Below, one piece after another: positions 60,061-61,669 of a stretch of DNA of 64,000 bases. Made by a program: the position numbers and the translations under genes. The DNA is taken from NCBI RefSeq assembly GCF_000186345.1, contig NC_014962.1:5298450-5362449 (forward strand), given 5' to 3'. This DNA is from Isosphaera pallida ATCC 43644. GTDB lineage: Bacteria > Planctomycetota > Planctomycetia > Isosphaerales > Isosphaeraceae. Position 1 is the first letter of the stretch. Each line of letters begins with the position of its first letter. The notes under the pieces were generated by a model, which was not told where the DNA came from, did no database searches, and worked only from the letters and a program-made list of their open reading frames with translations.

Positions 60061-60271
60061 GCGATCATTTGGCGTGCAAGCCCCCTTGACGCCGTCTTGA
60101 CCGTCCCCGACGATAGAAGGGGGAGGAAACAAGAGAAGATCGAAGGCGGTCGCAGGGGGTGTCGAACCCCACCTCCATCGGCGATGGTCATCCTCTCGAA
60201 TCACCACAAGCATTCCCATTTCCCCAGAGATGCGGGTCACGCGACGCGGCAAGACGAGACGGGAGGGACGC

Positions 60272-61669
60272 ATGGCGGCCAAGAAAGTGGGATTCCTTGC
60301 GATTGTCCTCACGGCGCTGGGGTTGGGCGTGGTCGTCCTGGCGTCGTGGTTGAATGGGAATTCGGGAGGAGCGTCGCCGTCGGAGAAGCCGTCCGATCCC
60401 GCCCCGGCGGTTGCCCAAGCCGACGATCCCAACCAGGCGGAGGCGGACGCAGGGCACTCCAGCGACCTAACCTTCGAGCGCTTCGAGGCGATTCGCCAAC
60501 TCATCCAACCCCGACGCGAGGAAACGGGCTACCTAAGCGTTCCTTGGGAGACGAGTTTGTGGGAGGCCCGCAAGCGGGCGGCCCGCGAGGGCAAGCCGAT
60601 CCTGCTCTGGGAGATGGACGGGCACCCTCTGGGCTGTACCTGAAACAACGGTATTGCGGGCCGTGCGCTCGCTTGGTCTGATCCGGTTCTCCTCGACCTG
60701 GCCCGCAACGAATTCGTCGCGGCGGTGGGGGACGACTGGTATCAACGCCGTCGTCAAGATGACGAGGGCGACTTCTTCCGCAAGGTCGCGGCTCAAGGTC
60801 CCCGGGGTGGCAAGACCACCAGTTCCAACCAAGGTGTCTATTGCCTCACCGCCGACGGACGGTTGCTGGGCTACATCCCCGGCGACGTGGACCCCGCCCG
60901 AATGAAGGAGATGATCGAATCGTCCCTGGCCAAATGGCGACGACTCCCGGCTCAGGTTCGCCGGCCGAATGCCATCGAGGTGGGTGAACCGGCTAAGGTC
61001 GATCCCAGATATGACCGCCACCCCCCCGAAGGTGGTCTCATCATCGAAGTTCACACCCGGGCGTTGGAACGCGACGAGGCCCAAGGGTTTCGGGACGCCG
61101 AATGCGAATTCGGCGACGCGACCGCCACCGACCACCTCTGGATCACCCGCGAGGAGGCCAAGCAACTGCGCGGTCCTCGGCCGAACGCCACCCCCAAGGT
61201 GGGCGACTCCTGGCCGGTCCCCGACGCCGTCGCCCGTCGGATCGCCCGGTTCAACTTGGTGGACAACACCCGTGGCGAACCATTCCACTGGTCCAACGAG
61301 CAGCTCCGCGAGTTCGGTATGACCCTTACCGTCACCGAAGTCACCCCTAACGTGGTCCGCCTCCGCTTGGAAGGCCGCTTCGAGTTGACCAACGAACACG
61401 AACCCCAACCGCAACCTGACCGCCGCGGCTTCGTAGGCACTATTTTAGGGCGTCTGGCCTACGATCGGGCCTCCCAAACCTGGACTCAATTCGACTTGGT
61501 GGCCGTCGGCGACCACTGGGGCACCCCTGGCATCGTCGAACCTGGGCGACCTGGCAAGGCCCCTGTCGGCGTCGCCTTCCGTCTGGTCGTCACCCCGTCC
61601 CCCGCTGACCTCGTGCCCCCCCAGGCCGCCCGCGACCTCTTCAACTATTACAAACCCGACCGATATTGA
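60272..61669 (+). CDS. Thioredoxin-fold-like protein with in-frame TGA: candidate selenoprotein
   Basis: From the ATG at 60272 (after CGGGAGGG) the frame reads a membrane anchor or signal helix (VGFLAIVLTALGLGVVVLAS), a linker and a thioredoxin-like start (EGKPILLWEMDGHPLGCT), then a TGA at 60641-60643 (codon 124). The same frame continues as NNGIAGRALAWSDPVLLDL, ARNEFVAAVGDDWYQRRRQD and DEGDFFRKVAAQG to a stop at 61669, with normal codon character throughout. Reading TGA as selenocysteine gives 465 residues and a Cys-Thr-Sec motif where the redox centre is expected. After the fold a ~250-residue C-terminal domain follows (WKRLP-type linker, EFGMTLTVTEVTPNVVRLRL). A stem-loop follows the TGA (separate entry). 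If TGA is a true stop, it is a pseudogene. Exported or membrane-facing location is likely. Confidence 0.6.
60644..60688 (+). promoter_or_regulatory. Candidate SECIS stem-loop downstream of TGA
   Basis: CGGGCC (60657-60662) pairs with GGTCTG (60675-60680) through four Watson-Crick and two G-U pairs, around a 12-base loop. Below it AAC-GG (60647-60651) can pair with CC-g-GTT (60683-60688) across an internal loop. The loop lies about 20-31 bases after the TGA, within the range described for bacterial SECIS elements. The pairing was found by hand and is not very stable, so it is only suggestive. Confidence 0.35.

Follow-up and report, generated by a model that had tools for sequence, protein, structure and literature searches.

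Isosphaera pallida carries a reading frame with good coding character on both sides of a single in-frame TGA, and the question this locus raises is whether that codon ends a gene or is read as selenocysteine (Sec). The window, i.e. the whole 64-kb stretch of DNA that was analysed, corresponds to C2:5298450-5362449 of the 5,529,304-base genome (two contigs), and all positions below are positions in the window unless another locus is named. We put the probability at roughly 90% that the gene encodes a full-length exported selenoprotein, in which UGA at codon 124 is Sec and which, given its thioredoxin fold, probably acts as a thiol/selenol oxidoreductase.

Reading frame and conservation of the in-frame TGA

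The frame lies on the + strand between 60272 and 61669 (465 residues, from an ATG at 60272 to a TGA at 61667–61669; an alternative upstream start is the ATG at 60230), and its sole interruption is the TGA at 60641–60643, which is codon 124. The original prediction had described one frame with a single TGA here, and it is correct in its coordinates and frame, in the place of the TGA and in the peptides on either side. GC3 is 0.74 upstream of the TGA and 0.75 downstream. Translation table 11 splits the gene into two ORFs, 60230–60643 and 60725–61669 (the latter from the first GTG), just as had been anticipated for standard gene callers. The bare pattern is weak evidence, because the window contains 15 TGA-bridged open frames, in each of which a TGA joins, in frame, one open stretch of 100 or more codons and one of 200 or more; the case for a selenoprotein therefore rests on conservation. 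Neither an Rfam match nor a tRNA gene was found in the 64-kb window.

tblastn and profile searches align homologues straight across the TGA, over residues ~60–464. Three further genomes of the host's taxonomic family have the gene (38–54% identity), each with TGA at the same codon in the motif G(H/N)PLGCTUNNG. We scanned 84,980 species genomes with the seed pattern KPI[LF][LI]W[ES]M, which is independent of the TGA, and collected 43 loci from Planctomycetota, Verrucomicrobiota (Roseibacillus and Rubritalea) and one Gemmatimonadaceae MAG; the family had been predicted to be planctomycete, which holds as far as its presence in Planctomycetota goes, but it extends to Verrucomicrobiota as well. 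All of the 46 aligned homologues of the Sec type, which come from Planctomycetota and Verrucomicrobiota, have TGA at codon 124, and the only close homologue without TGA is that from Gemmatimonadaceae (L093), which has TGC (Cys) at this site. Counting Sec and Cys together, the 47-protein alignment has 16 invariant columns, this site among them. The preceding Cys (Cys122 in I. pallida, codon TGT at 60635–60637, a column conserved at >90% and the putative redox partner of Sec124) is at −2 (CxU) in most homologues and at −3 (CxxU) in L088, L089 and L090. A partial copy with 58% identity to the window protein (L094:3600-4295) is on a contig that was binned as Rhodobacteraceae and is probably mis-binned.

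We searched 397 genomes of the class with a profile of the wider family in which Sec was modelled as Cys, so that TGA had no advantage. The profile matches 82 of the 397 genomes, often several times each, and 53 of 58 individually read sites have TGA (in motifs GCTU, GCVU, GCGU, TCU, ACUSGG and others), some of these 58 loci being the same genes as in the larger scan. Five forms lack Sec: L126 and L130 have Cys, L128 has Ser, L129 has Arg, and L127 has Cys or Asp according to how it is aligned. Homologues at codon 124, which the original prediction had proposed to inspect, thus have TGA and rarely Cys (L093, L126 and L130), so that the in-frame UGA is conserved as a sense codon and Cys homologues at the Sec position do exist, though they are rare. 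Not every copy needs Sec, since Ser, Arg or Asp takes its place in a few paralogues. L127, L128 and L129 (2183-3454), with motifs PCD, PCS and NCR and without Sec or a clear Cys, are possibly catalytically changed copies. The gene is also found in tandem: for example, four paralogues with in-frame TGA lie within 6.3 kb at L131:1203-7499 (G225:C62), with motifs GCVU, GCU, TCU and DCU. Very distant relatives in which TGA immediately follows Cys (an RCU motif; L037:346-2379, L038:877-1980 and L143:1145-2323) perhaps represent a further selenoprotein family.

A conserved hairpin downstream of the TGA

The 48 bases 3' of the UGA align without gaps across homologues. RNAalifold predicts a 6-bp stem beginning 12 bases after the UGA with a loop CGUGN, and the upper stem covaries (C-G/U-A pairs in 18/17 sequences, G-C/A-U pairs in 17/15). 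In a 12-pair version of the hairpin 80% of cells pair and 10 of the 12 pairs show compensatory change; its covariation is 0.348, versus 0.269 when shuffled and 0.09–0.161 when slid. Codon usage after the UGA is constrained accordingly: the rare Arg codon CGT is fixed at +7 (44 out of 47 genes, 6.8 expected), because a hairpin with the fixed loop CGUGN forces CGT, and there is an excess of GCG at +5 (16/17, 5.4 expected), GGC at +6 (30/31, 17.0 expected), GCG at +8 (16/17, 6.9 expected) and CTC at +9 (15/18, 4.9 expected), the constraint relaxing past +16. In bacteria, a SECIS element is a hairpin that closely follows the UGA and carries a G in its small apical loop (PMC1088965), and the predicted CGUGN loop on a covarying stem is of this type.

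The SECIS-like hairpin of I. pallida spans 60649–60680 (+ strand; upper stem 60656–60661/60667–60672, loop CGTGC at 60662–60666, and a weaker lower stem). All six upper pairs are possible, but when the I. pallida element is folded alone, its minimum-energy structure is not the conserved hairpin, which counts against the selenoprotein reading. The hairpin is missing in most non-Sec paralogues. The Gemmatimonadaceae Cys form (L093:4703-5833, motif GCTC) keeps the CGT codon and a similar stem-loop at the SECIS place, perhaps as a trace of a recent Sec-to-Cys change.

Association with the selenocysteine machinery

The genome has selA, selB, selD and a tRNA-Sec with anticodon UCA (selC), so that all four genes suggested as a check on the original prediction are present; a complete set of Sec-insertion genes has been reported for I. 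pallida (PMC4807772). Among the 397 genomes of the class, selA is found in 73 of the 82 family-bearing genomes and in 140 of the 315 others (odds ratio 10, p = 6e-14, uncorrected for relatedness). Nine family-bearing genomes are without selA, and seven of these have tRNA-Sec or selB. G254 (99% complete) lacks selA, selB and tRNA-Sec altogether, and its copy is a Cys form (GCSC). A case that counts against the selenoprotein reading is G162 (88% complete), whose copy (L116) has the TGA form although searches of this genome detected neither selA nor selB nor tRNA-Sec.

No conserved neighbour genes were seen beyond close clades, with one exception: in two genomes of genus g74 (L149:4922-12756 and L150:2204-9907) the gene adjoins selB, selA and a gene for an oxidoreductase/SelD fusion; a CDP-alcohol phosphatidyltransferase-like gene lies in between.

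Taken across homologues, these comparisons show that UGA at codon 124 has been selected as a sense codon, together with a conserved SECIS-like hairpin, in genomes that have the Sec machinery; the conserved TGA, the hairpin and the sel genes all bear out the selenoprotein reading, and standard bacterial Sec insertion is strongly supported by the comparative evidence. If the gene follows the established bacterial route, SelB would bind the hairpin and deliver Sec-tRNA to the UGA at 60641–60643; Sec would therefore be inserted at codon 124, and translation would run on to 61669.

Predicted structure and export

An AlphaFold model built with 47 sequences has a pLDDT of 86.4 and a pTM of 0.82. The N-terminal helix (residues 5–27, 60284–60352, + strand; hydropathy 2.76) is a predicted signal peptide or membrane anchor, and a hydrophobic signal or anchor is predicted for I. 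pallida and most homologues. The protein had been expected to be membrane-anchored, which its own N-terminus would allow, but most homologues look secreted, with cleavable signal peptides and no anchor. Two homologues have twin-arginine-like N-termini (MRRRTFFVTGG at L084:5905 and MRRRYFLFGG at L092:5872), suggesting export after folding and Sec insertion.

Residues 85–226 (60524–60949, + strand) form a complete predicted thioredoxin-fold domain: VIA-align gives Z 13.7 for 3f9u (128 residues, rmsd 3.3), 12.2 for AGR3, 10.6 for DsbH and 9.2 for DsbD gamma. A Foldseek search with the whole protein against the PDB gave no match at E<=0.001, and in the sequence search against solved structures a first profile found no match and a deeper one only 3ira (E 1.6). 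The model places U124 between strand 110–115 and helix 125–132, in agreement with the strand and helix foreseen on either side of the TGA, and suggests that Sec124 occupies the helix N-terminus position of a classical CxxC motif. The C-terminal domain (residues 250–465, 61019–61666, + strand) is beta-rich, with modelled strands between residues 256 and 438 (pLDDT mostly >80), and has the conserved motifs VDNTRGEP and RPGR-PLGVAF; it matches no family in Pfam or NCBIfam. The predicted protein thus combines an exported N-terminus, a thioredoxin fold whose active-site loop contains U124 beside Cys122, and a beta-rich C-terminal domain. Judging from fold and motif, it may be a thiol/selenol oxidoreductase that works outside the cytoplasm, where Sec124 and the neighbouring Cys would form a selenenylsulfide cycled against a partner, and the C-terminal domain may provide substrate or partner specificity.

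Alternative explanations

Nonsense mutations, pseudogenes and sequencing errors usually look like this, with one stop breaking a frame that is open on both sides, but the same TGA occurs in dozens of independently sequenced genomes at 30–54% protein identity, and this conservation refutes such an origin. The two ORFs that gene callers would report could also be taken at face value, as a short exported peptide ended by a true stop and a second gene with a start of its own (e.g. GTG 60725). Residues 125–151, between the TGA and that GTG, are however conserved and complete the thioredoxin fold, and in the Cys homologue L093 the two halves are joined in one protein; fused Cys homologues and the conserved coding sequence between the ORFs refute the two-gene arrangement. 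An open frame does not by itself name the inserted residue, and UGA might be decoded as a different amino acid, for example Trp or Cys, either because the code has changed or by near-cognate readthrough. This is very improbable: the genome uses UGA as a normal stop codon, and the gene itself terminates with one at 61667–61669, the replacement of the in-frame UGA in homologues is mostly Cys and not Trp, and the hairpin and sel genes co-occur with the in-frame UGA.

The alternative that keeps some weight, although we consider it unlikely, concerns function: Sec would be real, but outside the cytoplasm the Cys-Sec pair would serve to bind selenium, a metal or a metalloid, or else it would supply selenium to the Sec pathway, and the protein would not be a thiol oxidoreductase. 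The spacing of Cys and Sec varies (CxU, CxxU, CU), which is unusual in a CxxC redox enzyme, and the gene adjoins selB-selA-selD in genus g74; these two points make a role in handling selenium or metals conceivable, and the occurrence of up to four paralogues in tandem also speaks for it. Against it, a thioredoxin fold with U in the active-site loop is the usual setting of a redox Sec, and the synteny with sel genes is confined to one genus, with no conserved neighbour elsewhere. The exported selenoprotein with a putative redox function is the preferred reading.

Implications

Selenoproteins as such are not new; this family is unusually Sec-rich and expanded. With it the PVC bacteria, whose selenoproteomes have hardly been mapped, gain a selenoprotein family that appears to be undescribed, and dozens of gene models that had been split are corrected. 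Current selenoprotein finders rely on Cys/Sec pairs or filter by Cys homologues (PMC12013277), and the near-absence of Cys forms may therefore expose a blind spot of these finders. The variation among CxU, CxxU and CU within one family makes tolerance of Sec–Cys spacing directly testable. A bolder proposal, which we regard as doubtful, is that this is a large, paralogue-rich, almost Sec-exclusive exported family that is confined to Planctomycetota and Verrucomicrobiota, is linked to the Sec pathway itself, and has escaped notice because searches depend on abundant Cys homologues; if that were true, the link could mean selenium capture or delivery, or that the family is the main reason why these bacteria keep the Sec machinery.

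Comparison with known families

The window protein has no match in Pfam or NCBIfam at E<=1, and no entry fits it in a 2026 table of 119 prokaryotic selenoprotein families (PMC13188914). We found no paper that names the family, though members may be listed in Deng et al. 2026 (Cell Rep, on groundwater MAGs) or in Table S9 of PMC4807772, which gives candidate selenoproteins of two planctomycetes. As judged by Pfam, NCBIfam, the 2026 table and the literature searched, the family appears to be undescribed.

Several known families resemble it in part. The fold of residues 85–226 is like that of Thioredoxin_7 (PF13899), PF03190, DsbD gamma, DsbH and AGR2-AGR3 (Z 9–13.7), but Thioredoxin_7-type proteins have CxxC, whereas the window protein has CxU and an added beta-rich domain of ~215 residues. 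Weak matches to PF13899 are seen in 17 of 47 homologues (best E 5.6e-4); the window protein has none, and the paralogue L136 reaches 17.6 bits against a gathering cut-off of 27 bits. Two Sec families with a thioredoxin-like domain, Sec.1 (PF13192, CxU) and the Trx7/PDZ selenoprotein (NF041199, CxxU) (PMC13188914 Table 1), share that domain and a CxU or CxxU motif, but the window protein and the 47-member alignment match neither PF13192 nor NF041199.

Closest is the VPGUxxT family (NF041383, NF041382), which has a thioredoxin-like domain, a KKP-strand, Sec near the same place and then HP.IV...FVPV; one planctomycete that carries the new family (G059) also encodes a VPGUxxT selenoprotein with an in-frame TGA (L148:1501-2346). 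hhalign to this protein covers 61 aligned columns at 30% identity, in the thioredoxin part only. When the profiles are aligned, the VPGU Sec coincides with G121 and VPGU Cys38 with U124, suggesting that Sec124 takes the second Cys position of CxxC, whereas the AlphaFold model points to the helix N-terminus. The differences are considerable: the new family has HPLGCxUNN instead of VPGUxxT, the alignment covers the N-terminal half only, and homologues score 12–20 bits against cut-offs of 275 (NF041383) and 350 (NF041382), the best having E 3.5e-4 and 20 bits while the window protein has no match. By these profile comparisons VPGUxxT is the nearest known family, a distant cousin and not the same family.
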